Shown: positions 17,109 through 34,203 of the stretch, piece after piece | How the letters are laid out: every line of letters begins with the position of its first letter | How positions within the stretch are numbered: the stretch's first letter is position 1 | Assembly: GCA_015663065.1 (NCBI GenBank) | Contig: DQSX01000032.1 | Span: 1-35,102, forward strand | Direction of reading: 5' to 3' | DNA from: Sulfurovum sp. | GTDB lineage: Bacteria; Campylobacterota; Campylobacteria; Campylobacterales; Sulfurovaceae | DNA length: 35,102 nucleotides | Notes under the pieces: generated by a model | Databases searched by the model: none | Seen by the model: only the letters and a program-made list of their open reading frames with translations | Told to the model about the DNA's origin: nothing | Translations under genes and position numbers: made by a program

Positions 17109-18737
17109 TCAGAACAATATTTGCACAATATTCAGAATAAACATTACAATAAAACCCACTTTATAGACCATCATTTCATTTCTTTCAATGAACGAGAGAT
17201 TTTTATCGAAGTACGGTTTTACTCTCTGTGGATTATTTATTTCGTAGAGCATTTCGGAGTAGTTATGGTAGCGTTTGTCTGTATTGGTCTCAATAGCACG
17301 TAAAATGACACTCTCAAACCAGTCAGGTATTTTGGCATTCATTTTTGTCGGATGTATAGGTGTTTTTTCAAAAGAGGGATTTTGAAAAGGTTCTATCTCC
17401 CCAAAAGGAAATTTTTGGGTCAAAGCTTCATAGAGCGTCACACCTATGGCATACACTTCTGTCTGTTCGCTAATAGGTGCCTGTTCAAAACGCTCCGGTG
17501 CCAAATAGGATGGGGTACCCGCCCTTGACACATTGGTATACGCTTCTGTAATGGAACCAAAATCAACCATTTTAAATACAAACTTCTCTTTGCGTTTTGT
17601 CACAATGATATTTTCAGGTTTTATGTCACCGTGTACAAGGTCAAGTTTGCTCAGGAACTGTGACATATTAAGCAGAAACTGTGCCAACGCTATAGACATA
17701 TCGACCGTAATCGGCTTTTTAGCCACAAACTCTTTCAACGATACTCCATCGACATAAGACATGATGTAGTAACGGTGTGTACGCTTTTTGGGAATGACTG
17801 CTTTTGGGAAAAAACCTGCTTTGAGCCGTTTTGCCATCCAGACTTCTTTGACAAAAAAGTCTAAGATACTTTCATCTTCTATGGCTTCAGCAGGGGAAAA
17901 CTTAATAACATACTGTACTCCTTTGTTCACAGCAAGCCAGGTACGGTTGTTTTGGATCAGAGCCTTAACAAGTTTATAACCATCTATGACATCCCCCACT
18001 TTATACTTCTCTTCTATGATCAGATCGGACTGTTTAAGCTGCAGTCTGGGGTCAAGTTCTTTGATCTCCAGAACCACTGCAGTGGTATCATCGGGTAGTT
18101 TGTCATCATACGCTTTAGAAGCTTTTTTCACTAAAAAAGAGGCTCCCATATGTAGTCCCTCTGCCAGAACCTTTTCTGACAGTACCGTATAGAGACCGTC
18201 AGAACAGAGCAGTATCTGGTCTTTTGCCTGAAGATTGTTCTCAAAGTAGTACGGGTCTACAGTTGTTTCAAGGCCTATGGCAGCGGTCAGTACACCTTCC
18301 ATGCCCTCTTCTTCCATTGCATGATCATAAGAGAGTTGTGTAAAGCCTTCCTTTCTTTTTAAATAGATACGGCTGTCTCCCACATTGGCACCATAGAGTC
18401 TGTCACCTTCTATGACCACCAGCGTCATGGTTGTTACCAACTCTTCACGTTCATACTCTTCCATAGACTCAAGGTAAAGCACCCTGTTGATGTTTTCAAT
18501 GAAGTGTTTGATGGATTTTTCCATACTCCAGGACCTGGGTCTGTTCTTTAAAGAGTGCACCAAAAAATGGGAGACACGTTTTGCAGCTTCAGCACCCTGC
18601 ATAGCAGAGCCCACACCGTCGCAAACTACTGCCACAGTAATGTTCTCCAGGACTTTGACTTCAAAAAAATCATCTCCTTTGAGCTGTGTACCTTTTGCTA
18701 AAGTAAATCCTGATGTATCTATGGTTTGTTTGGACAT
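17109..18737 (-). CDS. PP2C phosphatase / Ser-Thr protein kinase fusion with C-terminal membrane anchor
   Basis: 542 aa in three parts. Residues 1-225 are a PP2C phosphatase: VVCDGVG (38-44), GANVGDSRIYL (116-126), LCSDGLY (177-183), PDDTTAVVLEI (215-225) carry the metal-binding Asp residues. Residues 250-510 are a Hanks-type kinase: VIKF with Lys279, catalytic HGDIKPEN (369-376), VDFG with Asp392, GTPSYLAPERF (407-417). The HRD motif reads HGD, and the glycine-rich loop (LVKALIQNNRTWLAV) lacks its glycines. A transmembrane helix ends the protein (VGFIVMFILNIVQILF), leaving both domains in the cytoplasm. The same fusion accompanies assimilatory nitrate genes in Pseudomonas, as I recall (PA1782 with nasA and nirBD). 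Its substrate is unknown; the nitrate transporter is a candidate. It appears to share the nitrogen palindrome of its neighbours. Confidence 0.9.
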   Translation of the reverse strand: MSKQTIDTSGFTLAKGTQLKGDDFFEVKVLENITVAVVCDGVGSAMQGAEAAKRVSHFLVHSLKNRPRSWSMEKSIKHFIENINRVLYLESMEEYEREELVTTMTLVVIEGDRLYGANVGDSRIYLKRKEGFTQLSYDHAMEEEGMEGVLTAAIGLETTVDPYYFENNLQAKDQILLCSDGLYTVLSEKVLAEGLHMGASFLVKKASKAYDDKLPDDTTAVVLEIKELDPRLQLKQSDLIIEEKYKVGDVIDGYKLVKALIQNNRTWLAVNKGVQYVIKFSPAEAIEDESILDFFVKEVWMAKRLKAGFFPKAVIPKKRTHRYYIMSYVDGVSLKEFVAKKPITVDMSIALAQFLLNMSQFLSKLDLVHGDIKPENIIVTKRKEKFVFKMVDFGSITEAYTNVSRAGTPSYLAPERFEQAPISEQTEVYAIGVTLYEALTQKFPFGEIEPFQNPSFEKTPIHPTKMNAKIPDWFESVILRAIETNTDKRYHNYSEMLYEINNPQRVKPYFDKNLSFIERNEMMVYKVGFIVMFILNIVQILF

Positions 18738-18767: not shown

Positions 18768-18821
18768 ATTATACCATTCTATGACATATTTTTTTGTATT
18801 TCTTTGATTAAAATATGTTCA
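18768..18821 (-). promoter_or_regulatory. Kinase/phosphatase promoter with imperfect nitrogen palindrome
   Basis: Read on the reverse strand, TGAACA-N5-TAATCA (18821 to 18805) has one perfect and one 4/6 half-site. Its first base is 48 bp upstream of a perfect TATAAT (18773 to 18768). That spacing is the same at narK, nirA and amtB. The expected transcript start near 18761 leaves a leader of about 24 bases. No good -35 is seen. Confidence 0.6.
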
Positions 18822-18902
18822 GTTGGACTATAAATAATTTTGATGACAATTCCGTGACATTTCTATGTTACACTGTTTACATAACTTTTCTAGGGGATCT
18901 TC

Positions 18903-19121
18903 ATGACGGTATATAAAGTGATCTATTTGAACCACTATGGTGAACAAGTTGCAGAGTTTGGTTATTATAAAGATAAACTTGATGCTGAAAAAAGAGTATT
19001 TGACGTAAAATTAAAAGCATCTCAAAACGGGAAAGTGGAAATTCAAGATGTTTTTGTACATGAAAGTTCTTATGAGACAAACGAAGACAAGGTCGTGAAC
19101 GATGTCTATGGCTTTAAATAA
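18903..19121 (+). CDS. Small protein of unknown function in the nitrate cluster
   Basis: 72 aa. I do not recognise the family. The sequence reads as strand-helix-strand: MTVYKVIYLNHYGEQVAEFG, then a charged helix (KDKLDAEKRVFDVKLKASQ), then KVEIQDVFVHES, and an acidic tail. There is no signal peptide, membrane helix or cysteine. A real gene is supported by the AGGGGATC ribosome binding site before the ATG, sensible amino-acid composition and lack of a longer competing frame. It lies between the kinase/phosphatase gene and narK, both on the opposite strand, and shares its upstream region with the kinase promoter. A role in nitrate assimilation is suggested only by position. A possible -10 is TACACT at 18869-18874. 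Confidence 0.65.
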   Translation: MTVYKVIYLNHYGEQVAEFGYYKDKLDAEKRVFDVKLKASQNGKVEIQDVFVHESSYETNEDKVVNDVYGFK

Positions 19122-19147
19122 CATAAAGGAGAAAGCCTTTATGCAGA

Positions 19148-20428
19148 TCAGATCATTCCTCCGGCACTTGCTCCCCATGTTGTTCTCCATCGTGTCTTCA
19201 CAAAGCTGAGTCCTGCGATCGCCACAAGTACCACTGCTGCAAAGATAAGAAAACCGATCATGTAGCCGTCAAAAGCACCTTTTGACCAACCTAAGGTTTT
19301 AATCAGCGCTGTACCGCCGAGACCACCTGCAGCCCCGACAATCCCTGTCATAATACCGATATCTTTACCAAAACGCTGCGGTACCAGTTGAAAGACCGAA
19401 CCGTTTGCCATACCCAAACTTGCCATAATGAGAAAAAGTACTGCAATAGCAACAAAAAATGGTAGTTTTGCTATTGCCAGCAGTGTCACAAGTGCAGCAA
19501 CTGCTCCGTAGAAAAAGTAAAGTGCTTTAACGCCACCTATTTTATCGGCGATGCTTCCCCCTACAGGTCTGAGTACAGCTCCCGCAAAGATGGTCAGGGC
19601 ACCAAAGTACCCGGCGATGACTTTTACGTTAGGTTCAGAAAAGACATCCAGCCCAAAAGCTGACATATCTGCCTGGTAAGTATTCATCAAATAGACTTTC
19701 ATATACCCTGCAAATCCTACAAAACCACCAAATGAGATGGCATAAAAAAGATTGAACCACCAAGTATCTTTGTCTTTGAGTAATTTTCCATAATCTTTTA
19801 GTTTTTTAGGTCTTACTTTATAGACAGACTCCGGAGCATTTTTCGCGATGAATGCATAGGCAATAAATACTACGATCGCCATAATGGCACCAACTAAAAA
19901 TACAGACTCCCAACCCCATTTTTCAGCGATCTTAGGCGCAAAAAGGAAATCGATAACCACACCGATATTACCAGCCCCCGCAATACCAAGTACGACTCCC
20001 TGAAGTTTTGGCGGGTACCACTGTCCTGCCTGTGGCAGCGCCACAGCAAAAGAGGCACCGGCAAAACCAAGTCCCAATGCAACAAGAAGTAAAGCATTAT
20101 AGGTAATGCTCTCCCCCATGAAGTATGCGGTTAAAAGTGCTACTATCACCACTGACTGTGCCATCAGTGCTGTTGCTTTTGCACCCAGTTTGTCTACACC
20201 AAAACCAAGCAGTATCCTTAAAAATGCTCCGGACAAGATAGGAAGAGAAAGCAAAGTCGCTTTTTCACCTGCTGTCATGATGTACCCTGTTACTGCCAAG
20301 GCTTCTGCGATCTCAGTAGAGAGTGGACCCAACATCGTCCATACCATAAAACTCATATCGAAATATAAAAATGCCATAAATAAGGTAGGTGCATGTCCCT
20401 GTCCTTTTAATGCTTTAAATCCTGCCAT
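19148..20428 (-). CDS. narK: Nitrate/nitrite transporter, MFS family (NarK/NasA type)
   Basis: 426 aa with about 12 predicted transmembrane helices. Nitrate/nitrite porter features are visible: FMAFLYFDMSFMVWTMLGPL in helix 1, RILLGFGVDKLGAK after helix 2, GAGNIGVVIDFLFAPK (nitrate signature 1) and GIVGAAGGLGG (signature 2), with GMANGSVFQLVPQRFGKDIG between. It would bring nitrate into the cytoplasm. Its partners are on the other side of a shared 233-bp promoter region: nirA, the quinol-linked iron-sulfur fusion and nasA. These point to assimilation rather than respiration. A strong ribosome binding site (TAAGGAG) precedes the ATG. Confidence 0.93.
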   Translation of the reverse strand: MAGFKALKGQGHAPTLFMAFLYFDMSFMVWTMLGPLSTEIAEALAVTGYIMTAGEKATLLSLPILSGAFLRILLGFGVDKLGAKATALMAQSVVIVALLTAYFMGESITYNALLLVALGLGFAGASFAVALPQAGQWYPPKLQGVVLGIAGAGNIGVVIDFLFAPKIAEKWGWESVFLVGAIMAIVVFIAYAFIAKNAPESVYKVRPKKLKDYGKLLKDKDTWWFNLFYAISFGGFVGFAGYMKVYLMNTYQADMSAFGLDVFSEPNVKVIAGYFGALTIFAGAVLRPVGGSIADKIGGVKALYFFYGAVAALVTLLAIAKLPFFVAIAVLFLIMASLGMANGSVFQLVPQRFGKDIGIMTGIVGAAGGLGGTALIKTLGWSKGAFDGYMIGFLIFAAVVLVAIAGLSFVKTRWRTTWGASAGGMI

Positions 20429-20458
20429 TGTATCTCCTTAAGATAATTTATTTAAGGA

Positions 20459-20512
20459 AGTATATAATATTATTAAGCCACACAAAACTTTTTATTGATT
20501 AATTTTTAATCA
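20459..20512 (-). promoter_or_regulatory. narK promoter with exact nitrogen palindrome
   Basis: ATTGATTA-N5-TAATCAAT (20494-20514) is a perfect 8-bp-arm palindrome containing the TGATTA-N5-TAATCA core at 20496-20512. On the reverse strand the core starts at 20512, exactly 48 bp before TATACT (20464 to 20459), a good -10. The predicted leader is about 24 bases. The centre would lie near -52, a usual position for an activator upstream of RNA polymerase. Confidence 0.72.
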
Positions 20513-20574
20513 ATCATACATTGTCCTTATTCCCTTGCCTTGTATCTATATTCCATTAAAAATAAATTTTGCAT

Positions 20575-20628
20575 TGATTAAATTTTAATCATACTGTTTC
20601 TATTTTAACGTCTTCTTCCTGCTATAAT
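20575..20628 (+). promoter_or_regulatory. nirA operon promoter with exact nitrogen palindrome
   Basis: TGATTA-N5-TAATCA at 20575-20591 is followed, 48 bp from first base to first base, by a perfect TATAAT at 20623-20628. No -35 is recognisable in the expected place, consistent with activator dependence or the weak -35 habit of this phylum. Together with the narK site, each arm of the divergent region has its own operator at the same distance. Confidence 0.72.
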
Positions 20629-20661
20629 AAAAACAACAATATATACGAAAAGAGAAAGTCA

Positions 20662-22581
20662 ATGGAAGCATTACAAAAAGCACGTGAAGCAAGATCTAAA
20701 AAAGTTAATAAAGTAGAAGCAACCAAAGCACTCAAATCCCCTATGGATGTCTATGAAAGACTTGAAGAGATCGCAGCAGCAGGGTATGAAAACTTAAGTA
20801 AAGAAGATTCGGCCTACTTTTTAAAATGTTTTGGACTTTTTGACAAAGGTGAGTACTTCATGCTAAGAGTACGTGTACCTGCCGGACAGCTTAGCAATGA
20901 CGAAGCCATCCGCATCGCAGAAGTAGCTAAAAAGTATGGTGATGACTACATCGATATCTCCACACGTATGCAGATCGTTCTGCGATATATCAAGATAGAG
21001 AACATAGCCACTGTCCTGAAAGAACTCAAGGAAGTGGGTCTAACGACCTTTCAAACCGGTGCAGACAATACAAGAAATACAGTATCTGACCCACTGGATG
21101 GTTTGGCTTACGACAATATCATTGAGACCAAACCTCTCATTGATACACTTGAAAACACTTTTATAGAAAATCCAGAATGGATCTCTACACTTCCCCGAAA
21201 ATTCAACATAGGTATATTGGGTTCTCTTTCAAACTCCTGCAATATCTTTGGACATGACTGCTGTTTTGTACTGGCACAAAAAGAGGGTATTTTTGGTTTT
21301 AACATTTTCCTTGGGGCACGTGTGGGTGTGCAGGCAAAAGATGCCAACCTCTTTGTCACAACAAATGAAATACCTGCCTTTTACACTGCGTTACTGAATG
21401 TCTATAAAACCTACGGGTACAGAGACAACCGAAACAAGAACCGTCTACACTTTTTACTCACAGACGTAGGCATACCCACTTTTGTAGAAGCAGTAAAGAA
21501 AGAGGCAGGATTAGACTTTGCAGATGCCGGAGTAACCATGGTTCAGTCACAGAACATTGCCCTTGGAGCTAACAAAGTCCTGCTGAAAGACGGTACTTTT
21601 GCCTACAAGATCATTGTACCCTCAGGGATCTTTTCAGGGACGGATCTTATCGCATCTGCAAACACAGCAAAAACATTCGGTTCGGGGGACATTAGACTCA
21701 CTTACGACCAGAACCTCTACCTCATCAATGTACCTTCTGAACAACTCTCTGCACTTGAAGAGAGTGCACTGGTAAAGAAATATGCCCAGTATCATAACCT
21801 CTATTTTCAGGATATGATCGCCTGTGCAGGTACCAAAACCTGTTCTTTTGCTGTCATTCCCAATAAATCCGATGCCATTGAGATGGCACACTTCCTCAAC
21901 TCTGAAGTACCTTTGAACAATGCCGTTATTCGTATGAACTGGTCAGCCTGTCCTAAAGGCTGCGGTATCCACGGCATTGCCGACATTGGATTTGAGGGGT
22001 GTAAAGCCAAAGATGCTGAGGGAAAACGTGTGGACGGTGTGCATATTTTTGTGGGTGGCAAGATCACCCGTGAAGCCAAAGAGGCACATACCCTGCACAA
22101 ATCACTTCCTATCACAGAAGCGAAACATCATGTGAAATATCTGCTGAAAACCTACGCTGACAACAAAGAGAGAGCAGAAACCTATGAAGCATTTGATGAC
22201 AGATTTTTAAGCCGAAATTACAGTTTTCAGGCACTGGGTTTTTTCACAAAGATCAACTACATTTTAAATGACAAACTGAATCTCAACATTCCGTTTGAGC
22301 TTGAGAAAGAACCGACGACCTCCAAAAGAGAAGCGTATGAACTTTTTGCCTTTGGACTCAAGCTCTTTAAACTGCTTAGCGGTGAAAAACGTTTTGAATC
22401 TGTAGACGGACTGCTTCCTACCCTTGTAAAACCAAGAAAGATCACACGTGATGAAATTTCCAGGATCAATCCAAAAGTACCTCTAAAATTATCTGAAATC
22501 ATATATAATATGACCCATGAGAACAAAAATGAAAGAGCACAGGTATTTTCAGAATTGCTAGTGGCTTTAAAAGAAGTATAA
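20662..22581 (+). CDS. nirA: Assimilatory nitrite reductase (sirohaem/4Fe-4S, ferredoxin type)
   Basis: 639 aa. It reduces nitrite to ammonium by six electrons on a sirohaem coupled to a 4Fe-4S cluster. The cluster ligands are visible as Cys388-x5-Cys394 (ACAGTKTCSF) and Cys430-x3-Cys434 (SACPKGCG). Arginines for the substrate and sirohaem are in DISTRMQIVLRYI (98-110) and NTRNTVSDPLDG (136-147). The duplicated ferredoxin-like half domains typical of the family are present (LRVRVPAGQLSNDE and FAYKIIVPSGIFSGTD). It is longer than the usual 510-590 aa; the extra part is a helical C-terminus of about 90 residues with no motif I know. A sulfite reductase is possible in principle, but the operon with nasA and narK argues for nitrite. 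It starts the operon, one base ahead of the next ATG. Confidence 0.9.
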   Translation: MEALQKAREARSKKVNKVEATKALKSPMDVYERLEEIAAAGYENLSKEDSAYFLKCFGLFDKGEYFMLRVRVPAGQLSNDEAIRIAEVAKKYGDDYIDISTRMQIVLRYIKIENIATVLKELKEVGLTTFQTGADNTRNTVSDPLDGLAYDNIIETKPLIDTLENTFIENPEWISTLPRKFNIGILGSLSNSCNIFGHDCCFVLAQKEGIFGFNIFLGARVGVQAKDANLFVTTNEIPAFYTALLNVYKTYGYRDNRNKNRLHFLLTDVGIPTFVEAVKKEAGLDFADAGVTMVQSQNIALGANKVLLKDGTFAYKIIVPSGIFSGTDLIASANTAKTFGSGDIRLTYDQNLYLINVPSEQLSALEESALVKKYAQYHNLYFQDMIACAGTKTCSFAVIPNKSDAIEMAHFLNSEVPLNNAVIRMNWSACPKGCGIHGIADIGFEGCKAKDAEGKRVDGVHIFVGGKITREAKEAHTLHKSLPITEAKHHVKYLLKTYADNKERAETYEAFDDRFLSRNYSFQALGFFTKINYILNDKLNLNIPFELEKEPTTSKREAYELFAFGLKLFKLLSGEKRFESVDGLLPTLVKPRKITRDEISRINPKVPLKLSEIIYNMTHENKNERAQVFSELLVALKEV

Positions 22582-22582
22582 G

Positions 22583-24190
22583 ATGACAATAGAACCTTTA
22601 AGCAAACATACTCCTCTGGAGAGTTTCATCAAGCACAAAAATGAGACCGGTATGCAGTGTGGTAATTACAGCATTGACATTCCTGAACTGAAAGAGGGAG
22701 AGCAGTATCGTTTTCACTTCGATGCCACTGCCTGTGTAGGCTGCCACTGTTGTGAAGTCGCCTGTAATGAGCAGAATGCAAACCCTGACGACATCAAATG
22801 GCGACGAGTAGGCGAGATGGAGATGGGAGAATTCCCTGACACCCTGCAACTCTTCAACTCTATGAGCTGTAACCACTGTATAGACCCGGAGTGTCTTAAA
22901 GGCTGTCCTACAGAGTCATACATTAAGCTAGACAACGGCATCGTCTGGCATGACGATCCAAGCTGTATCGGTTGTCAGTACTGTACCTGGAACTGTCCTT
23001 ATGAAGTGCCTACGTTCAATCCTGACCGAGGCATTGTGACCAAGTGTCATATGTGTGTAGACAAACTTGAAGCAGGTCAGACTCCTGCCTGTGTACAAGC
23101 CTGTCCTGGCGGTGCCATAGAGATAGAAAGCGTCAACATAGAGCAGTGGCTTGCAGAAGATATGGAAAAAGAGGGTGTTGCGCCACATCTTCCAAGCATC
23201 GACATTACCAAACCCACTACGCGATATACACTACCTGAGATCAAAGAGGGAGAAGAGATACGTCCTGCGGATGAACACCTTTTAAAACCAGCACACACTG
23301 AGTTGCCTCTTGTCTTTATGACTGTACTGACACAAGTCTCACTAGGTGCATTTTTTGCCCTCTTTTTAGGGCAACTCCTGTACTCTTTAGGATTTAATCT
23401 ACCTGAACCAAATCTGACTATGGCTATTTTAGCCTTTTTACCTGCTGCCATCGGTCTGCCACTCTCAGCCCTGCACCTTGGACGCCCCATTAAAGCTATG
23501 TCTGCCATGAAGAACTGGAGAAGCTCCTGGCTCTCAAGAGAAGCCATTGCTTTAGGTGCCTACACAGGTCTTGCTACCCTGGTAGCAGCACTCTACTTTT
23601 TTAAGCTCAACGGCTTTGCACTGCTCTTTGTGGAAGCAGTGACGTTAAGCATTGGTATATTCGGCATTTATGCCCAGTCCATGATCTACCGTATTAAGGC
23701 ACGTCCTGCATGGAACAGAAAATCAACCACTAAAAGATTTTTTGGTTCAGGCTATGTAGGCTTTTTACTCATCGCCATGGTCCTACTCATTTCCAATGGT
23801 TCTCAGGGTGCCATTGTCCTCTTGGCAGTGACCCTTCTCACAGGAATGGGACAGGTTCTAGTGATCTTTGAAGAAGTCATGTTCTACCGTCATTTAGACA
23901 AAGAAGATCCACTCTACTACCAATACAACAGAACAAGGATCCTGCTTCAGGAGCATTTTCCAAAAGTCAAAAAGTTCAGGGTTTACTCTTTGGCACTGTT
24001 TGCTTTGACACTGCCACTCTTCGCCATACTCTTCACGGCTAGTGGATTGGCCAACCTTGCAATCGTAACTTTGACTGTAGCAACTGTAGGTGCGTTTATC
24101 TCTGAACTGGCAGGACGCTACCTCTTCTACAGAACCGTAGTACCGTTAGGACTGGCTGGGAATTTCTTTGCCGGTAATCAGAGACATTAG
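22583..24190 (+). CDS. Fused DmsB-type 4Fe-4S protein and DmsC-type quinol-oxidising membrane anchor
   Basis: 535 aa joining two usually separate subunits. Residues 1-220 are a four-cluster ferredoxin domain: Cys51/54/57/61, Cys96/99/104/108, Cys128/131/134/138 and Cys155/158/170/174. Residues 240-535 are a DmsC-like membrane domain with about eight helices and the family motif SAMKNWRSSWLSREAIALGA. DmsC-type anchors oxidise menaquinol and the ferredoxin part passes electrons to a molybdopterin enzyme. The next gene, eight bases on, is the nitrate reductase, so this fusion probably supplies it from the quinone pool. No Tat signal is present, so the iron-sulfur part should face the cytoplasm, as an assimilatory enzyme requires. 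Nitrite reductase might draw on the same source. Confidence 0.85.
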   Translation: MTIEPLSKHTPLESFIKHKNETGMQCGNYSIDIPELKEGEQYRFHFDATACVGCHCCEVACNEQNANPDDIKWRRVGEMEMGEFPDTLQLFNSMSCNHCIDPECLKGCPTESYIKLDNGIVWHDDPSCIGCQYCTWNCPYEVPTFNPDRGIVTKCHMCVDKLEAGQTPACVQACPGGAIEIESVNIEQWLAEDMEKEGVAPHLPSIDITKPTTRYTLPEIKEGEEIRPADEHLLKPAHTELPLVFMTVLTQVSLGAFFALFLGQLLYSLGFNLPEPNLTMAILAFLPAAIGLPLSALHLGRPIKAMSAMKNWRSSWLSREAIALGAYTGLATLVAALYFFKLNGFALLFVEAVTLSIGIFGIYAQSMIYRIKARPAWNRKSTTKRFFGSGYVGFLLIAMVLLISNGSQGAIVLLAVTLLTGMGQVLVIFEEVMFYRHLDKEDPLYYQYNRTRILLQEHFPKVKKFRVYSLALFALTLPLFAILFTASGLANLAIVTLTVATVGAFISELAGRYLFYRTVVPLGLAGNFFAGNQRH

Positions 24191-24198
24191 GAAATAAA

Positions 24199-26523
24199 AT
24201 GAAGATGATAGATAAAATAAAAACCTTTTTAGGTACCGATATAAAAGAAGGGCAGTATGCACTTGTCGATGACCCCATCTTTGGAAAAGTGGCAAAAGCC
24301 AAAGCACCGGACAAATGGGTTCGTTCCACCTGTGGCTACTGTGGCGTGGGCTGCGGGATGTACATTGGGGTTAAAAACGGTAAAGCCGTTTACTCCAAAG
24401 GAGACCCTTTACACCCCGTCAATATGGGTACACTCTGCCCCAAAGGTTTGAGTGAACATAAAATGGTTGAGGCAGACTCCCGCGTACCAAAACCTCTGCT
24501 CAAAAAAGAGGGGAAACTGCAGCCAGCTTCCTGGGATGAAGTCTTTAGTAAAACCTCAGAGGAGTTCAAACGTATCCAGGAGGAACACGGCAAAGGCGCG
24601 GTGGCAGTCATCTCTACGGGACAATTGCTCACTGAAGAGTTTTATGCTTTAGGAAAGTTCACGCAACTGGGTCTTGAGACCAACAACTACGACGGGAACA
24701 CCACACTTTGTATGGCTTCGGCAGTGATGGGCTACAAACAGACTTTTGGTTCAGACGGACCAACAGGCTGTTATGAAGACTTTAGCAAAGCAGATGTGAT
24801 TCTTTTGATCGGTGCCAATATTGCAGACAACCACCCTATTTTGAAACTGCATATTGCTAAAAACCAAAAAGAGACAGGGAAAAAACCAACACTCATCGTG
24901 GTAGATCCTCGAAAGTCAAAAACTTCACAAATGGCAGACATATTTGTACCCCTCTCCCCTCGTTCAGACCTTGCTCTGCTTAATGGACTTTGTTACATCA
25001 TTATGGAACAGGGTTGGGAAGATGAGAAGTTCATAAAAAACAGAACCAACGGGTACAAAGCGTTTAAAAAACATATTTTAGCCAACTACCCGCCTCAGGA
25101 AGTAGCAAACATCACGGGCTTAGATGTTAAAGAACTTTACAACCTGGCAAAGGTCTATGCCGCTGCAGACAAAGCCATGTCAGCCTGGACCATGGGAGTG
25201 AACCAGAGTTCCATTGGTACAGATACCGTCTCTGCCATCTGTAACCTGGCACTCATTACGGGAAATCTTGGAAAAGAAGGTGCTGCACCTATGTCCATTA
25301 CCGGTCAGTGTAATGCCATGGGTACGCGAGAGTTTGGTTTTACCTCATCCATTCCCGGTTACAGGAACTATGCCTCTCAAAGTGACAGAGCAGACTTTGC
25401 CAAGATCATCAACGTGCCTGAAGCGCTCATTCCTACAGCACGTGGTTATGCCTACCCACAGATCATCGATGCCATCAACCGTGGTGAGATCAAAGCGCTA
25501 TGGGTGGTTGCTACCAACCCTCTGGTCTCTTACCCGGACCAAAACGCATTGAGATCCGCACTGAAAAAACTTGACATTCTTGTGGTGCAGGATGCCTTTA
25601 TGTCTGATACTGCTCAGATCGCCGATGTGGTCTTTTCAGCAGCCACCTGGTCTGAAAAAGAGGGTTGCTACACCAACTCGGAACGTCGCTGTAACTATGC
25701 CAAAAAAGCCATAGAACCTTTGGGTGATACAAAAAGTGACTTAGACATCGTTTTGGAATTTTCAAAGTATTTTGAAGGTAAACATGAACTGCTGTTTAAA
25801 GATCTCTCAACCCCAAAAGATCTCTTTAACGAGATCAAACGTGTCAGCAAAGGACAACTCTGTGACTACTCGGGAATGGACTATGCACTCATAGAAAATC
25901 TTGGCGGGATCCAGTGGCCCTGTAATGAGCATGCTCCCAAAGGAACCAAACGTCTCTACTCAGAAGAGATGAAATGTAAGACGGCTGACGGCAGAGCCAA
26001 TCTGCTTCCTGTAGACTGGAAACCTCTCTCTGAAATGGCCTGTGAAGGTCTGCCTCTCATACTTAACACAGGACGAACAGTAGAGCAGTTCCACACCAGA
26101 ACCAAAACCGGTACCATTGGCATACTTGACGCTTTGGCTCCTGAAGCCTGGGTGGACATTCATCCCAAAGATGCACAAAAACTCAAAGTCAAAAGCGGAG
26201 ACCGTATTGCACTCTCAGGAACACGCGGTCGTGTAGAAGATGTCATCGTCAAAGTGAGTCAAACGGTAAGAGAGGGAAATGTCTTTGTGCCTTTCCACTT
26301 TAACGAACAGCTCATCAACAACATTACCATCCCGGAGTTTGACCCAAAATCGTTTGAACCCAACTACAAACAGTGTGCAGTACAGTTGCACTCAGAAGCA
26401 GTACCGGAAGGCATTGCCTATGAAGAAGTGGAGATATCTGGTTATTTGGAAGGGGTGAAGGTGTATCACGATGAAGAAGTAGTCGATGAAAAAAGTGAAA
26501 TATCTCACGATGTAGCACGGTAA
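24199..26523 (+). CDS. nasA: Assimilatory nitrate reductase, molybdopterin catalytic subunit
   Basis: 774 aa. The N-terminal 4Fe-4S site is Cys45-x2-Cys48-x3-Cys52 with Cys80 (STCGYCGVGCG ... LCPKG). The molybdenum ligand is Cys171 in NTTLCMASAVMGYK, and FGSDGPTGCYEDF matches NarB/NasA. Later blocks typical of the family are MGVNQSSIGTDTV, GQCNAMGTREFGF, VFSAATWSEKEGCYTNSERR and NTGRTVEQFHTRTKTG. It lacks a Tat signal and is therefore cytoplasmic, unlike NapA. It reduces nitrate to nitrite. There is no C-terminal ferredoxin or flavodoxin domain, so electrons must come from another protein, most likely the fused iron-sulfur/membrane protein upstream. AGGAAA lies before the ATG; a second ATG is at 24205. 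Confidence 0.92.
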   Translation: MKMIDKIKTFLGTDIKEGQYALVDDPIFGKVAKAKAPDKWVRSTCGYCGVGCGMYIGVKNGKAVYSKGDPLHPVNMGTLCPKGLSEHKMVEADSRVPKPLLKKEGKLQPASWDEVFSKTSEEFKRIQEEHGKGAVAVISTGQLLTEEFYALGKFTQLGLETNNYDGNTTLCMASAVMGYKQTFGSDGPTGCYEDFSKADVILLIGANIADNHPILKLHIAKNQKETGKKPTLIVVDPRKSKTSQMADIFVPLSPRSDLALLNGLCYIIMEQGWEDEKFIKNRTNGYKAFKKHILANYPPQEVANITGLDVKELYNLAKVYAAADKAMSAWTMGVNQSSIGTDTVSAICNLALITGNLGKEGAAPMSITGQCNAMGTREFGFTSSIPGYRNYASQSDRADFAKIINVPEALIPTARGYAYPQIIDAINRGEIKALWVVATNPLVSYPDQNALRSALKKLDILVVQDAFMSDTAQIADVVFSAATWSEKEGCYTNSERRCNYAKKAIEPLGDTKSDLDIVLEFSKYFEGKHELLFKDLSTPKDLFNEIKRVSKGQLCDYSGMDYALIENLGGIQWPCNEHAPKGTKRLYSEEMKCKTADGRANLLPVDWKPLSEMACEGLPLILNTGRTVEQFHTRTKTGTIGILDALAPEAWVDIHPKDAQKLKVKSGDRIALSGTRGRVEDVIVKVSQTVREGNVFVPFHFNEQLINNITIPEFDPKSFEPNYKQCAVQLHSEAVPEGIAYEEVEISGYLEGVKVYHDEEVVDEKSEISHDVAR

Positions 26524-26535
26524 AGCATCTATATA

Positions 26536-26564
26536 GGGCGTTTTTTGTAAAAAACTCCTTTTTT
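26536..26564 (+). terminator. Likely terminator of the nirA-nasA operon
   Basis: GTTTTTT (26540-26546) pairs with AAAAAAC (26549-26555), and GG (26537-26538) with CC (26557-26558), followed by a six-T run (26559-26564). It begins 13 bases after the nasA stop. The stem is AT-rich, so efficiency is uncertain. Confidence 0.55.
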
Positions 26565-26627
26565 GGCTAAGATATACTTAATTCATTATAATGCAAAAAT
26601 AAGAAAGAGAAGTGCCATCATGCTATT

Positions 26628-26647
26628 TAGCACGCCTGTGCTATAAT
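26628..26647 (+). promoter_or_regulatory. thiI promoter -10 overlapping a palindrome
   Basis: TAGCAC-GCCT-GTGCTA (26628-26643) is a perfect 6-bp-arm palindrome that runs into TATAAT (26642-26647). The predicted start of transcription, near 26654, leaves under ten bases before the ATG at 26662. The palindrome could be an operator over the -10. Confidence 0.45.
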
Positions 26648-26661
26648 GCCACTTATTAAAC

Positions 26662-28140
26662 ATGAAGGTCATCTCTTTGGAAACTCCTGCAGTAAAAACT
26701 CAAAAATTCATCTTAAAACTTTTCCCTGAGATCATGGTAAAAGGCTCTTCAGCCAAAAGACAGATGGTTGGACAACTCTACAATAACCTTGTGAAACTTT
26801 TAGAGAGATTCTCTACAGATATTCATATCAAAAAGTTCTCAGACAAAATAGAAGTACTTACTCCCCTTGACGTAGTAGTGGAAGTGAGACAATGTCTTTT
26901 GGACACCCCGGGTATTGAGCAGGTGCTTGAAGCGCTGCAGTTTAATGACATGGACTCTCTTGACAAGATCAAAGTCAAAGTTGCAGAGATGATGACACAT
27001 AAGATAGAGGGGAAAACCTTTGTAGTACGTGTCAAACGTTCCGGAAAACATGAGTACAACTCCACAAAGATCGAACAAACCGTCGGTGGTTACATGCTGG
27101 CGCACTCTTCCGCCAAAGGTGTTGACCTGCACAACCCGGAAGTGACCATTAGAATAGAACTCATTAACGACCAGCTCAACATCATTACTACCAAACATGC
27201 GGGACTCAGCGGTTTTCCCATCGGTACTCAGGGAGACATCCTCTCTTTAATGTCAGGTGGGTTTGACTCTACCATCGCCTCTTACCTGACAATGAAACGA
27301 GGGTTAAAAACACACTTCATCTTCTTTAACCTTGGCGGTATAGCCCATGAGATAGGTGTAAAACAAGTAGCACTGTACCTCTGGTCTAAGTTTGGTGCTT
27401 CACATAGAGTGAAGTTCATCTCCGTGCCTTTCGAAGCTGTAGTAGAAGAGATTTTCCGTTCTACCCATGAGAGCTATATGGGAGTGACCCTCAAACGTCT
27501 TATGCTCATGGCCTCTGAAAGAGTAGCCAATGAACTGGAAATTGATGCCTTGCTCACCGGTGAATCTGTAGCACAGGTTTCCAGCCAGACACTGCGCAAC
27601 CTGGCACTCATTGACCAAGTGACCAATAAACTTATACTCCGTCCGCTTGCCACTATGAACAAACCAGATATCATCAACATTGCCAATGACATAGGGACCA
27701 AACGTTTTGCTGAAAATATGCCTGAGTATTGTGGTGTGATCTCTAAAAATCCCATTATCCATGGTTCATACAAACGTATGGAGAGAGAAGCGAAACGTTT
27801 CAACTATGAAGTCTTAGACAAAGCGGTAGAAGATGCACAACATCTTTATGTTGATGAGATCATTGATGATGTAGCCTCTGCTTCTCCGGTGGAGGTGATC
27901 AAAGATCTAAATGATGATAACAATTTTGTCGTGATCGATATACGTGCAGAAGATGAATGTATAGAAACATCTTGTAAAAGCATCAAAATACCTTTCCATC
28001 AACTCAAAACAGAGTTTAAAAAACTTCCTAAAGACAAAGAGTACCTGCTCTATTGTGAAAAAGGGATCATGAGTCAACTGCATGCCCAGTATCTACGTGA
28101 TGCAGATGATGTGAAAAATGTGCGGGTTTACAGACCTTGA
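26662..28140 (+). CDS. thiI: tRNA 4-thiouridine synthase ThiI with C-terminal rhodanese domain
   Basis: 492 aa. Domain order is N-terminal ferredoxin-like and THUMP (15-175), PP-loop pyrophosphatase with SGGFDST (198-204), then rhodanese (415-492). Key residues are Cys357 in MPEYCGVISKNP and the persulfide Cys465 in YCEKGIMS, the pair used by E. coli ThiI to move sulfur onto tRNA uridine-8; the rhodanese domain also serves thiazole synthesis. The ATG at 26662 has almost no ribosome binding site and would sit under ten bases from the TATAAT-predicted transcript start. A TTG at 26677 (Leu6) has AAGGT at a good distance and may be the real start. The gene is monocistronic, ending before an inverted repeat. 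Confidence 0.93.
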   Translation: MKVISLETPAVKTQKFILKLFPEIMVKGSSAKRQMVGQLYNNLVKLLERFSTDIHIKKFSDKIEVLTPLDVVVEVRQCLLDTPGIEQVLEALQFNDMDSLDKIKVKVAEMMTHKIEGKTFVVRVKRSGKHEYNSTKIEQTVGGYMLAHSSAKGVDLHNPEVTIRIELINDQLNIITTKHAGLSGFPIGTQGDILSLMSGGFDSTIASYLTMKRGLKTHFIFFNLGGIAHEIGVKQVALYLWSKFGASHRVKFISVPFEAVVEEIFRSTHESYMGVTLKRLMLMASERVANELEIDALLTGESVAQVSSQTLRNLALIDQVTNKLILRPLATMNKPDIINIANDIGTKRFAENMPEYCGVISKNPIIHGSYKRMEREAKRFNYEVLDKAVEDAQHLYVDEIIDDVASASPVEVIKDLNDDNNFVVIDIRAEDECIETSCKSIKIPFHQLKTEFKKLPKDKEYLLYCEKGIMSQLHAQYLRDADDVKNVRVYRP

Positions 28141-28146
28141 CATTCT

Positions 28147-28210
28147 TAGGAACCTTGAACTTGTTCAAGTCTTTAAGCCAACATAGCCTTAAACGAGTTT
28201 AAGGTTCCTA
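28147..28210. repeat. REP-like palindromic element A between convergent genes
   Basis: 64 bp between the stops of thiI and the truncated DUF234 gene. TAGGAA (28147-28152) pairs with TTCCTA (28205-28210). Inside are two perfect hairpins: CTTGAAC/GTTCAAG (28154-28169) and CCTTAAAC/GTTTAAGG (28187-28204). The halves can also pair with each other as one long imperfect hairpin. Its first 24 bases resemble element B at 32467. It may also work as a two-way terminator. Confidence 0.55.
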
Positions 28211-28216
28211 TTTATT

Positions 28217-29122
28217 TTAATCCAAAAGAATTTTAAGGTCTTCCAAATCAAAAAGAAGCAGTTTTTCATCTTTCAAAGAGAGCAGTTCATTGGAAAACCC
28301 GCTTTTTGAAAAAAGTGCATAGATATCTACGGCTATACCTGACTGAAGGGCTTTCTCTTTAAGCTTATTGAGCTCATTTTTGCATATTTTCCGATCTTTG
28401 TATTTACACTCGCCCAGTATCAGTTTCTTATCTTTTGTAATGGCGAGGATGTCAAACTCACTATGTTGGTTCCAGTAAGACCCAGAGCTTAAAAGTGCTG
28501 TGCTCTTTTCATAATATTTCACAAGAAGATCATTACAAAGCTGTTCGTAGATCAAGGTACGCAGTCGTTCATAATGTTTTTCAAAGTTTTCCAGAAAATC
28601 ATTACCCCTGCCTTCTATCAGCTCTTTTCTATAGTACGTCACAAATCCAAACCAAAAACGCATAAAAGGCTGTACAAAACGCAATTTGTCCTGTACCCTG
28701 TAGGAACGTAGCTCTTTTTTAAGTTTATGTTTGGGATGTATTTTCAGTGGCTGTTCTCGGGTAGGTTCGATATAGAGTATATTTAAAGCGATAAGTTCAT
28801 CGATGATCGCTTCACCGCTACCTTCACTTAACCTTGCTTTTCTTAATACAGAGTAGAACTTTCCATCACCTCTTGCCACCGCCATCAATACATCACGATA
28901 GGGACTTTCAAGCAGGTAAGAGGGAGAAACAAGTGTTTGGAACTTGACAAAATCTTCTACAAAATTACTTTGCACCATAGAGAAGACATTGTCAAAAAAG
29001 TCCAGCTCTATATTCTCTTCTATTCCACCTAGAATTGAGAAGTGTTCAACCGACTGTTCCAGTGTTAAATGGGGGTTGTAATGACAAAAGTAGTTAAATG
29101 CATTTTTTATGGGACGTTTACC
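28217..29122 (-). pseudogene. 5'-truncated archaeal-type ATPase with DUF234 / PD-(D/E)XK-like C-terminus
   Basis: The open frame runs from a TGA at 29123-29125 to 28217 (301 codons plus stop). Its first residues, RPIKNAFNYFCHYNPHLTLE, and SILGGIEENIEL match the part that follows the P-loop domain in this ATPase family, well upstream of the first ATG (28978). The C-terminal half is DUF234-like: SPSYLLESPYRDVLMAVARG, then RFVQPFMRFWFGFVTYYRKE, and SEFDILAITKDKKLILGECK with the D-x(n)-E-x-K layout of a PD-(D/E)XK nuclease. The whole N-terminal P-loop ATPase (about 150-200 residues) is missing, and nothing like Walker A or B remains. A 253-aa product from 28978 is possible but would lack the ATPase. 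Some relatives act as defence or mobile-element proteins. Confidence 0.7.
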
Positions 29123-29170
29123 TCATTTTTTTATTCATAGTGTTCAACTATAAGTTTAACATAGATTTGA

Positions 29171-29208
29171 TATAATACCTTATAGAATAAATGGCTATTT
29201 TTTAATCA
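29171..29208 (+). promoter_or_regulatory. Promoter and possible autorepression site of the NtrC-like gene
   Basis: TATAAT at 29171-29176 predicts transcription from about 29183. Just downstream, TGGCTA-N5-TAATCA (29192-29208) is a 10/12 match to the nitrogen palindrome with the exact N5 spacing, ending 15 bases before the ATG. A site here would block rather than activate transcription. No clear -35 is seen. Confidence 0.5.
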
Positions 29209-29223
29209 TTATAAAGTACGACT

Positions 29224-29958
29224 ATGCAACAATTTTTCACCAAATCTGAACAGGTACACAATATCATCAAAGGATTTAACCTTACAAAAACCCTCTTTGT
29301 CTCCTCTATCATTATAGGGGAAGAGCATATTGGGAAAAAGCTTTTTGTAAAACATCTTTTTCCTGATGCTCCTGTAGTATCCGGAGAAGATCAGGGAGCT
29401 GTGGTAGACGCGTTAAGGGAGTATGATGAGCTGATCATCACCGACTTTGAAAAACTGCGTAATCAGGAGTCGCTGGAGCTGGACAATAAGCGCATCATTG
29501 CCACAGCTTCTTATATAGGCAATCAAACGATCATTGATGATATGTTTGCATTTATCTATACCCTGCCCTCGCTCAAAGAACGTCCTGAAGATGTTGAATA
29601 CATTAAAGCACTCTTTATCAAAGAGGCAGCGTCAGACTTGATGCTGACAAATACAAACTTTGACATCACTGCAATCCCTGTCAACCTGACACAAAACACA
29701 AAAAGTCTTAAAAGTACTATATACCGATATCTTATGATACATTCAATGAGTAAAAATGAGATACAGGATGCTGTCTACTCATATGTTTCGGAAAAACTTG
29801 AGGGAAATAACGGATACAAGGAGCATCTTGCACTTTACGAAAAACCACTGATAGAAGCCGGATTGAAAAAATTTGGTTCGCAACTGCAACTTTCCCAAAT
29901 ACTGGGGATCAATAGAAATACCCTTAGGAAGAAGATACATGAACACCACATCGACTGA
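29224..29958 (+). CDS. NtrC-like regulator without receiver domain or sigma54 loop
   Basis: 244 aa. The C-terminus is a Fis-type helix-turn-helix (YEKPLIEAGLKKFGSQLQLS, then QILGINRNTLRKKIHE, 205-240) like the DNA-binding domain of NtrC. Before it is a shrunken AAA+ domain: a ruined Walker A (GEEHIGKK, 32-39, where NtrC has GExGTGKE), DELIITDFEKL (68-78) at Walker B, RIIATASY (90-97) at the sensor, and LPSLKERPEDVEYIKALF (114-131), a clear match to the LPPLRERPEDI motif. The GAFTGA loop that contacts sigma54 is absent, as is a receiver domain. It should therefore bind DNA without opening sigma54 promoters. It overlaps the NtrB-like gene by 20 bp and lies upstream of amtB-glnK, so I propose it as the nitrogen regulator recognising TGATTA-N5-TAATCA. 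Confidence 0.75.
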   Translation: MQQFFTKSEQVHNIIKGFNLTKTLFVSSIIIGEEHIGKKLFVKHLFPDAPVVSGEDQGAVVDALREYDELIITDFEKLRNQESLELDNKRIIATASYIGNQTIIDDMFAFIYTLPSLKERPEDVEYIKALFIKEAASDLMLTNTNFDITAIPVNLTQNTKSLKSTIYRYLMIHSMSKNEIQDAVYSYVSEKLEGNNGYKEHLALYEKPLIEAGLKKFGSQLQLSQILGINRNTLRKKIHEHHID

Positions 29959-30658
29959 GTCTGAAAACACCATAGATTTTCAGAGTTTTCTGGACTGGGA
30001 CAACAGTCCTTTTATACTCTTTAATGCTGCTGGCAAGATCCTCTATCTTAACAATGCTGCAGAAATTCTTTTTGGTTATGTCTCCAAAAAAGAGCTGTAT
30101 GACCTTGCACTTGCCTATGCCCCTCATGACTTTGGGTACACAACCACCACACTGGCACTCAATTATGATGCCTTTACCTTTTATGCCATCACGGTAGGGT
30201 ATGAGAATGAAGATCAGATCTCTATTCGTTTTTACAATGCGCCACGGATCAAATCCAATGTACCTATTGAAAGAGACAAACTTGTGGAGACAAACATCAA
30301 CCTTCTGCTTGAAGCCAATATTGTTCTTTTTAAAACAAAGAACAGTAACCATCTTCAACTCCTGACCGATCATGATATACCTACATTTAAAATAGACCAG
30401 AACAAATTTTCAAAACTGCTTAGAAAGACACTTGAATCATTCAGGTCATCAGACTCCATCCATATTACACTCAAATTATTGACCGGTGAACATGTGATCA
30501 TTGCAGGAAAGAAAAAAGCCATTGCCCAACTCAGAGTTGAAGCAAACGGCCGATACACTGACGCAGATGAGGAGATCAAAAATATTGCTATGCACTGCCA
30601 CATTACACACATTCTTAAAGAGAAAAGTATCAAACTAGAAATACCACTCATTGATTAA
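29939..30658 (+). CDS. NtrB-like PAS protein with degenerate kinase domain
   Basis: 239 aa from ATG 29939, chosen because AGGAAGAAG precedes it; an upstream in-frame TTG at 29873 is not supported. Residues about 14-105 form a PAS domain (FLDWDNSPFILFNAAGKILY, LNNAAEILFGY) placed as in NtrB. The remaining part lines up only loosely with a histidine kinase: no phosphorylatable His in an H-E-x-x-N/P motif, a residual DQNKFSKLLRKTLESF where the N-box helix should be, no N-box Asn and no DxGxG, then an end KEKSIKLEIPLID like the last strand of HATPase domains. It should not be an active kinase. It overlaps the NtrC-like gene, and its stop codon lies within the amtB operator. A sensory or PII-binding partner of the NtrC-like protein is my inference. 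Confidence 0.7.
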   Translation: MNTTSTESENTIDFQSFLDWDNSPFILFNAAGKILYLNNAAEILFGYVSKKELYDLALAYAPHDFGYTTTTLALNYDAFTFYAITVGYENEDQISIRFYNAPRIKSNVPIERDKLVETNINLLLEANIVLFKTKNSNHLQLLTDHDIPTFKIDQNKFSKLLRKTLESFRSSDSIHITLKLLTGEHVIIAGKKKAIAQLRVEANGRYTDADEEIKNIAMHCHITHILKEKSIKLEIPLID

Positions 30659-30705
30659 AAATTAATCACTCTGCCGATAAAATATACTTCATTAAATGCT
30701 ATCAT
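30652..30705 (+). promoter_or_regulatory. amtB promoter with exact nitrogen palindrome
   Basis: TGATTA-N5-TAATCA at 30652-30668 overlaps the stop codon (30656-30658) of the NtrB-like gene. TATCAT (30700-30705) is 48 bp from first base to first base, as at nirA and narK. The predicted leader is about 27 bases and contains AAAGGAA ahead of the amtB ATG. Confidence 0.72.
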
Positions 30706-30738: not shown

Positions 30739-32046
30739 ATGAAGTTAAAACTTTTCGCTCTACTGGCAACACTCTTGCCAATTGCTGCATTTGCAGAAGA
30801 CAAACTTGATTCGGGTGACACAGCATGGATGATGATGTCCACAGCACTCGTTCTACTAATGACACCGGCAGGACTGGCACTTTTTTATGCAGGTATGACA
30901 CGATCTAAAAATGCCTTAAATACCTATGCAATGGTGATGGGTGCATTTGTACTTGCATTTGTTGTGTGGATCGTTGCAGGATACTCCATAGCATTCGGTA
31001 CTTGTGAAAATGCTACATTACAAAATGTATTTGGAGGACTTGGAAATGTACTTCTTTCAGGTACAAAATGGACTGACCTTTCAGGTTCTTACCCCACATA
31101 TGTGTTTGTTGCATTCCAGGGAACATTTGCTGCTATTACAGTAGCGATTGCATCTGGTTCAGTCATCGGTCGTATGAAGTTCTCTACATGGATGGTGATC
31201 GTTGCCCTATGGGGTCTGGTTGTATATGCTCCTATTACTCACATGGTATGGGGTGGAGACGGTGCACTTCTTTTTGATGCTGGTGCACTTGACTTTGCCG
31301 GTGGTACAGTGGTACACATGAATGGTGGTTTGGCTGGTCTTGTACTTGCCATCCTGGTAGGTAAAAGAACAGGCTACAACAAAGTACCTATGAAACCTTT
31401 CAGTATTATCTTTACAGCAGCAGGTGCTGCACTACTATGGTTCGGTTGGTATGGATTTAACGGCGGTTCTGCATTTGGTGCAAATGCCATTGCCGGTCTT
31501 GCTGTACTTACTACCACTGTTGCTACTGCAGTTGCAGGATTGACCTGGGTACTGATTGAGTGGTTTGTGTTTAAAAAGCCTACACTGCTTGGTATCGCAT
31601 CTGGTATCATTGCCGGTCTTGTGGCTATTACTCCGGCAGCAGGATTTGTTTCTGTTGGCGGTGCATTCATCATTGGTATCTTCGGATCAGTGATCGCATT
31701 CTTCGGTGTTGTGACACTTAAAAAGAAACTTGGTTATGATGATTCACTGGATGCTTTTGGTATTCACTTCCTGGCTGGTCTATGGGGGGCACTTGCAACC
31801 GGTTTCCTTGCACTAAATGACAAAGATCTTCTATGGGATGGTCCACTTAAAGAGTCTGGAGACAGAATGGGACAATTCATGGTGCAAGTTGAATCCGTAG
31901 TCATTGTGGGTCTGTGGACCTTGATCGGTACCGTCGTTGTCTATTATGTGGCGTCTGCATTGACAGGTGGTGCCAGAGTCGACGCCGAAACTGAAGAGAT
32001 GGGCCTAGATGAAGCTGTACACGGTGAAAAAGGCATGAATCTGTAA
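30739..32046 (+). CDS. amtB: Ammonium transporter AmtB (E. coli type)
   Basis: 435 aa. A cleavable signal (MKLKLFALLATLLPIAAFA) is followed by 11 predicted membrane helices, the usual Amt layout. The twin pore histidines are His193 (VVHMNGG) and His343 (AFGIHFLAG); Asp185 (LDFAGG) matches the conserved residue near the outer site, and FQGTFAAIT carries the Phe gate. The cytoplasmic tail ends ETEEMGLDEAVHGEKGMNL, the conserved stretch that docks GlnK. It imports ammonium when scarce. It is followed by glnK after 76 bp and preceded by the regulator pair. Confidence 0.95.
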   Translation: MKLKLFALLATLLPIAAFAEDKLDSGDTAWMMMSTALVLLMTPAGLALFYAGMTRSKNALNTYAMVMGAFVLAFVVWIVAGYSIAFGTCENATLQNVFGGLGNVLLSGTKWTDLSGSYPTYVFVAFQGTFAAITVAIASGSVIGRMKFSTWMVIVALWGLVVYAPITHMVWGGDGALLFDAGALDFAGGTVVHMNGGLAGLVLAILVGKRTGYNKVPMKPFSIIFTAAGAALLWFGWYGFNGGSAFGANAIAGLAVLTTTVATAVAGLTWVLIEWFVFKKPTLLGIASGIIAGLVAITPAAGFVSVGGAFIIGIFGSVIAFFGVVTLKKKLGYDDSLDAFGIHFLAGLWGALATGFLALNDKDLLWDGPLKESGDRMGQFMVQVESVVIVGLWTLIGTVVVYYVASALTGGARVDAETEEMGLDEAVHGEKGMNL

Positions 32047-32113: not shown

Positions 32114-32464
<351 letters not shown>

Positions 32465-32531: not shown

Positions 32532-32548
32532 TGATTAATAATTAATCA
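32532..32548 (+). promoter_or_regulatory. Exact nitrogen palindrome upstream of amtB2
   Basis: TGATTA-ATAAT-TAATCA, a perfect match, 116 bp before the amtB2 ATG. Unlike the other exact sites, no -10 lies 48 bp downstream. A poor 8/12 match (32585-32601) does have TACACT at that distance (32633-32638), so a second weak site may be the working one. TCTCCTGATTA occurs at 32527-32537 and again at 32618-32628. Confidence 0.55.
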
Positions 32549-32664
32549 CATTTTTCTATCATTTTCCCCAAAAAACCCATTTCTTGCATATTTTTTCAAC
32601 AATACATTTACACTATCTCTCCTGATTACTGATACACTAAGAGTACAAATTTTTAGGAGATCTT

Positions 32665-33858: not shown

Positions 33859-34203
<345 letters not shown>

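Follow-up and report, generated by a model that had tools for sequence, protein, structure and literature searches.

A candidate nitrogen-assimilation regulon of Campylobacterales with a palindromic operator at constant distance from sigma-70-type promoters

The enterobacterial nitrogen regulator NtrC recognizes the consensus TGCACC-N5-GGTGCA, and TyrR is a degenerate activator of the sigma-54 family that is used with sigma-70. Nitrogen control by NtrC proteins that lack the GAFTGA loop and act on sigma-70 promoters is known in Rhodobacter capsulatus and Caulobacter, and VspR is a relative of sigma-54 activators that works on sigma-70 promoters (PMC10274813). The authors of the Arcobacter butzleri genome noted an apparent lack of NtrB/NtrC and RpoN (PMC2147049), and a review of respiratory regulation in Campylobacterota leaves NtrC unmentioned. 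Here we analyse a 35,102-nucleotide stretch of Sulfurovum sp. DNA (contig DQSX01000032.1 of assembly GCA_015663065.1; hereafter, the window), in which genes for ammonium transport and nitrate assimilation are preceded by copies of the palindrome TGATTA-N5-TAATCA. The window also encodes a degenerate NtrC-type protein, RegC, and its proposed partner, RegB (both working names). In open-access papers, we found no description of this regulator or of the site.

A conserved palindrome at nitrogen promoters

The window contains four exact copies of the palindrome, at narK, nirA, amtB1 and amtB2 (Table 1). None appeared in 100 dinucleotide-shuffled versions of the window (mean 0.00), and when up to two mismatches were allowed, 11 matches were found compared with 3.2 expected. 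The proposal of an initial annotation, made from the sequence letters alone, that this is a real, repeated site beside nitrogen genes is borne out. Its count of four exact copies was also correct, although the fourth, at amtB2, was absent from its table of spacings and lies 101 bp from the -10. Its central claim, a distance of 48 bp from the first base of the site to the first base of the -10 at four promoters, held on reading for narK, nirA, amtB1 and the gene encoding a PP2C phosphatase-protein kinase fusion, the last of these with a weak site that matches at only 10 of 12 positions.

Pattern searches of the genome (1.7 Mb, about 81% complete) revealed only two further exact sites. One precedes a porin-like gene and stands exactly 48 bp from TACTAT; the other (L001:1501-1517, contig C63), between yqeY and a small gene, probably arose by chance, because its spacer includes a G and no -10 stands at 48 bp. 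Among relatives of the same family, sites were present at orthologous promoters: amtB1 right after regB, narK/nirA, amtB2, the porin gene and regC itself. The divergent narK/nirA pair is usually 76-79 bp apart in these genomes, and their amtB2 genes have a closer-matching second site, 53 bp beyond the first. Exact sites in other families precede amtB, glnK, glnA, narK, nirA/nas, genes for NrtA-like binding proteins, nitrate reductase genes and porins. The compiled operator reads TGATTAA-WWW-TTAATCA, with a spacer composed entirely of A and T in 109 of 112 sites.

Spacing was measured from first base to first base, using the site nearest the gene and accepting as -10-like any TAnnnT hexamer that matched TATAAT at four or more of six positions. 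Tabulated across relatives, the distances extended the 48-bp claim well beyond the window. Within the family, the -10 started at 48 or 49 bp in 48 of 54 promoters (2,000 shuffles: mean 3.7, maximum 12), and in nine other families it did so in 31 of 41 (shuffle mean 2.7, maximum 9). Spacing is constant in approximately 75-90% of regulon-gene promoters in these ten families, and the counts are strong yet not independent, because the shuffles preserve nothing beyond base composition and the promoters share ancestry. Exceptions within the family were mostly amtB2 genes, several of them with a -10 at 101-103 bp; outside it, a second class has a spacing of 38 bp (10 of 41), shorter by about one helical turn. 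With the first base of the -10 set as -12, the site centres fall at about -52, -42 and -105. At target genes, 31 bp separate the site from the -10, placing the site outside the core promoter. The hexamer is preceded by T (0.67) and G (0.68), as in an extended -10, and no -35 is present. The distant amtB2 site, the 38-bp class, the operator of regC and the porin and glnA targets had all escaped the initial annotation. Judged from sequence, the operator and its promoter spacing are common to most families of this order, whose members are mostly free-living bacteria of sulfur and deep-sea habitats.

RegC and RegB, candidate regulator and partner

RegC has 244 amino acids and a P-loop region near residue 37. 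It combines an AAA+ remnant with a C-terminal Fis-type helix-turn-helix; the NtrC model matches residues 167-240, and HTH_8 was detected in 27 of 31 RegC sequences. The Pfam family Sigma54_activat matched 14 of 31 RegC relatives, with the window's own protein among those unmatched. A structure model with a mean predicted local distance difference test (pLDDT) score of 92 resembles NtrX, ZraR, NtrC1, PspF and VpsR in fold, with template modelling (TM) scores of about 0.5 for NtrX, NtrC1 and PspF. No receiver domain was found in RegC by Pfam, alignment or model, and the GAFTGA loop is absent in all 31 aligned sequences. RegC is placed outside the NtrC response-regulator family, because the receiver that defines the family has been lost.

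Site abundance tracks the presence of RegC even inside one genus; we found RegC in 275 of the 399 genomes of the order. In the window's own genus, 22 RegC-bearing genomes hold 80 exact sites (reversed-pattern control, 0), and G242, a member without RegC, has no exact site. Families f16 and f20 hold 136 exact sites in 45 genomes (control, 8) and 94 in 44 genomes (control, 3), respectively. For f10 and f13, two families without RegC that are probably Helicobacteraceae and Campylobacteraceae, the counts were 14 (control, 3) and 5 (control, 4) in 45 genomes each, or 19 in the pooled 90 (control, 7). Near the amt genes of the RegC-less genomes examined, no site with two or fewer mismatches occurred within 300 bp. 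The window's NtrC-like gene, at which the initial annotation had already hinted, is the best candidate for the binding protein.

The genomic setting of regC varies. In Sulfurimonas, Sulfuricurvum and Sulfurospirillum (L149, L151, L157 and L161), homologues are flanked by slyD and fabD within a housekeeping cluster, a location that led us to reject a place in a nif cluster for RegC of Sulfurimonas and Sulfurospirillum; in Sulfurovum, regC is found together with regB and amtB. Across same-genus relatives, a DUF234 gene (28217-28978 in the window) is the divergent neighbour of regC, and the two may share an intergenic region.

RegB has approximately 240 amino acids, and in the window its gene shares 20 bases with regC. 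RegB was present in 25 of 25 RegC-bearing genomes checked and in none of five without RegC, and elsewhere it is often unlinked to regC. Its model shows a PAS domain, a single helix and then an ATPase-like fold that matches the ATPase domain of NtrB (1r62; TM score 0.62 on the target). Neither a DHp histidine-bearing helix pair in the model nor a HisKA or HATPase match in Pfam was found. The Sulfurimonas gene two places after regC was rejected as regB; it encodes an unrelated protein.

Family f8, probably Arcobacteraceae, has RegC and shows no excess of TGATTA sites (29 versus 34 in the control). The recognition helix of its RegC reads NRITLRKK, compared with NRNTLRKK, and a different palindrome, TGTATA-N5-TATACA, lies upstream of its amt genes. 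Across the 399 genomes, this pattern was found 182 times in 32 f8 genomes with RegC (control, 35) and five times in 13 f8 genomes without it (control, 8). In one f8 genus, genomes with RegC had 7, 3, 7, 8, 4, 5 and 4 sites and those without had 0, 0, 0, 1, 0, 0, 0, 0 and 0 (p = 0.0002). The f8 sites precede amt, glnA, regC and an NrtA-like gene. Of 45 orientations, 19 have a -10 at 48 or 49 bp (shuffles: mean 4.3, maximum 11). TGTATA sites were also present at amt, glnK and regC in an f18 genus with NRAT and in family f11 with NRIT. A further f8 site lies upstream of a gene for quinohemoprotein amine dehydrogenase (L348:2110-3711), a possible link to amines as a nitrogen source. Operator and recognition helix have changed in step, which makes these lineages a natural experiment on the joint change of a transcription factor and its sites.

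Proposed mechanism and alternative explanations

We consider it very likely that these elements make up an order-wide nitrogen-assimilation regulon, in which RegC would bind the compiled operator, recruit sigma-70 RNA polymerase and receive its signal through RegB. RegC would have descended from NtrC-like sigma-54 activators through loss of the GAFTGA loop and of the receiver, and would contact the operator through its Fis-type helix-turn-helix, probably as a dimer. Bound to one face of the helix at about -52 (rarely at about -42, and at some amtB2 genes also at about -105), it would bring the polymerase to extended -10 promoters without a -35 and thereby switch on ammonium transport, glutamine synthetase, and nitrate and nitrite uptake and reduction. 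RegB most likely relays the nitrogen signal by protein contact rather than phosphorylation, and the P-II proteins encoded next door would be its obvious source, perhaps GlnK. With less assurance, we lean towards a wider view in which a decayed NtrB-NtrC pair serves as the order's general nitrogen control, free of both phosphorelay halves and of sigma-54 dependence: P-II would act on RegB and RegB on RegC by contact, at helically phased sigma-70 promoters, with the TGATTA operator having been exchanged for TGTATA, along with a changed recognition helix, in some lineages.

The kinship of RegC with sigma-54 activators in fold and Pfam matches would suit an ordinary sigma-54 enhancer-binding protein whose distance to the -10 is coincidental. 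However, sigma-54 (PF04552) is absent from four single-contig, 99-100% complete genomes that carry RegC and the sites, G152 (same genus), G235, G291 and G398 (f8), and sigma-54 activation is excluded there because PF04552 is missing. Together with the absence of GAFTGA from the alignment, a spacing far in excess of chance and the occurrence of sigma-54-like elements in 2 of 95 promoters, this led us to reject the mechanism, to which we give almost no credence. By contrast, an activator near -52 working with a sigma-70-type polymerase, as the initial annotation suggested, agrees with the constant spacing in ten families, the extended -10 and the missing sigma-54. That the motif is a chance or AT-rich repeat element has only its AT-rich core to speak for it and is refuted by an expectation of zero in the window, by a reversed pattern that is close to absent in genomes with 2-11 motif copies and by the sites at orthologous promoters; we regard its probability as negligible.

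Direction of control is a separate question. RegC could repress all of its target genes, keeping them off while ammonium is abundant. The arrangement at regC itself speaks for this reading: many relatives have an exact or near-exact site 31-43 bp ahead of the start codon and about 20 bp 3' of the point where a conserved TATAAT begins. RegC probably represses its own gene, because this operator comes shortly after the predicted start, in the position of a repressor. (TTTAAC, although conserved, was dropped as a -35 of regC, being merely 10 bp from the -10.) At the other targets, however, sites that end 31 bp upstream of an extended -10 lacking a -35, in fixed helical phase (48/49, 38 and 101 bp), have the layout expected of an activator, and we judge general repression unlikely. 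Nor do we find it probable that a different regulator, CRP/FNR-like, Fur-like or other, owns the sites and shares the distribution of RegC by coincidence, even though the co-occurrence tests covered some, not all, of the regulators in these genomes. The CRP/FNR-type consensus is TTGAT-N4-ATCAA, and such sites likewise contain TTGAT...ATCAA; here, however, TGAT and ATCA stand 9 bp apart instead of 4 bp. Three further points speak for RegC instead: sites at its own promoter, site loss that follows RegC loss within one genus, and an operator change that coincides with a change in its recognition helix.

Several observations count against activation by RegC throughout the order. Correlations of presence and absence are influenced by shared ancestry, and direct repression may be compatible with the promoter geometry taken alone. 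Outside the family, a minority of exact sites stand beside genes with no evident tie to nitrogen or with annotations that give no function. Family f15, with an NRVT helix, retains TGATTA at glnK-amt and narK; a single residue does not suffice to explain the operator switch, and the code must involve more than that helix residue, because f15 keeps the original operator. The kinase-gene site is the weakest of the four in the initial annotation, because it is not conserved in the three relatives whose upstream region could be read and about 0.28 such matches (two or fewer mismatches, -10 at 48 or 49 bp) are expected per shuffled window. This promoter is a doubtful member of the regulon. Control by RegC through sigma-70 would provide a candidate nitrogen regulator, an operator and a genome-predictable target list for bacteria that are abundant at vents and in sulfidic sediments and groundwater.

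Window features and comparison with described systems

Table 1 Regulatory elements and genes in the window
Feature	Coordinates	Strand	Basis or remark
narK operator, exact palindrome	20496..20512	-	pattern search and shuffles
narK -10 TATACT, 48 bp from first base of site	20459..20464	-	sequence reading
nirA operator, exact palindrome	20575..20591	+	pattern search and shuffles
nirA -10 TATAAT, 48 bp from first base of site	20623..20628	+	sequence reading
amtB1-glnK1 operator, exact palindrome, overlapping the end of regB	30652..30668	+	kept in nearly all same-genus relatives
amtB1 -10 TATCAT, preceded by TGC, 48 bp	30700..30705	+	sequence reading
amtB2 distal operator, exact palindrome, 101 bp from -10	32532..32548	+	pattern search and shuffles
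amtB2 proximal operator, degenerate, TGCATATTTTTTCAACA, 8/12, 48 bp from same -10	32585..32601	+	better copies there in relatives L092 and L097
amtB2 -10 TACACT	32633..32638	+	sequence reading
Kinase/phosphatase gene operator, weak, tentative, TGAACATATTTTAATCA, 10/12	18805..18821	-	not conserved
Kinase/phosphatase gene -10 TATAAT, preceded by TGG, 48 bp from weak site	18768..18773	-	sequence reading
regC auto-operator, probable, TGGCTATTTTTTAATCA, 10/12	29192..29208	+	downstream of predicted start; exact or one mismatch in many relatives
regC -10 TATAAT, conserved, upstream of auto-operator	29171..29176	+	
PP2C phosphatase-protein kinase fusion adjoining narK, possible regulon member	17109..18737	-	
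narK, nitrate/nitrite transporter	19148..20428	-	
nirA-like assimilatory nitrite reductase	20662..22581	+	
Iron-sulfur (Fe-S) subunit, 3' of nirA	22583..24190	+	
nasC/nasA-like assimilatory nitrate reductase	24199..26523	+	
regC, degenerate NtrC-type AAA+ protein, Fis-type helix-turn-helix, proposed binder	29224..29958	+	
regB, PAS and NtrB-like ATPase fold, proposed sensor partner	29939..30658	+	
amtB1, ammonium transporter	30739..32046	+	
glnK1 (P-II)	32123..32464	+	
amtB2, ammonium transporter	32665..33840	+	
glnK2 (P-II)	33862..34203	+	

In several families (L090, L098, L100, L244, L250, L265 and L376), the gene for the PP2C phosphatase-protein kinase fusion adjoins narK or follows it, often after only a few bases, a placement that suggests a role in nitrate assimilation. 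For the Fe-S protein (535 amino acids), matches to known families cover only about the first 185 residues, and the nirA product has more than 100 additional C-terminal residues; both may be fusions. Elsewhere in the order, exact sites lie upstream of genes for a Cache-domain protein, a chemotaxis receptor and an EAL protein (L242, L258 and L260), through which nitrogen status may reach motility or cyclic di-GMP.

Compared with enterobacterial NtrC, the RegC system has a similar predicted nitrogen regulon (amtB-glnK, glnA and nitrate assimilation) and the same 6-5-6 palindrome geometry, but it differs in the proposed use of sigma-70 instead of sigma-54, the lack of a receiver, the operator sequence and a predicted action adjacent to the promoter. 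RegB resembles NtrB (GlnL) in its PAS domain and in the NtrB-like ATPase fold that comes after it, whereas its model lacks the histidine-bearing helix pair and the protein is only about 240 amino acids long. VpsR/VspR and TyrR are degenerate members of the sigma-54 activator family that work with sigma-70, as is proposed here for RegC, but they are not nitrogen regulators, are larger and recognize other operators. RegC suggests a path by which a sigma-54 activator could become a sigma-70 activator. It shares with NtrC of Rhodobacter capsulatus and Caulobacter the control of nitrogen genes through the housekeeping polymerase, predicted in the case of RegC, the absence of GAFTGA and the Fis-type helix-turn-helix. 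Unlike these proteins, RegC has no receiver, would use another operator at a fixed single site near -52 and has a proposed partner without phosphotransfer helices, and several RegC genomes have no sigma-54 at all. RegC probably works in the manner of these GAFTGA-less NtrC proteins.

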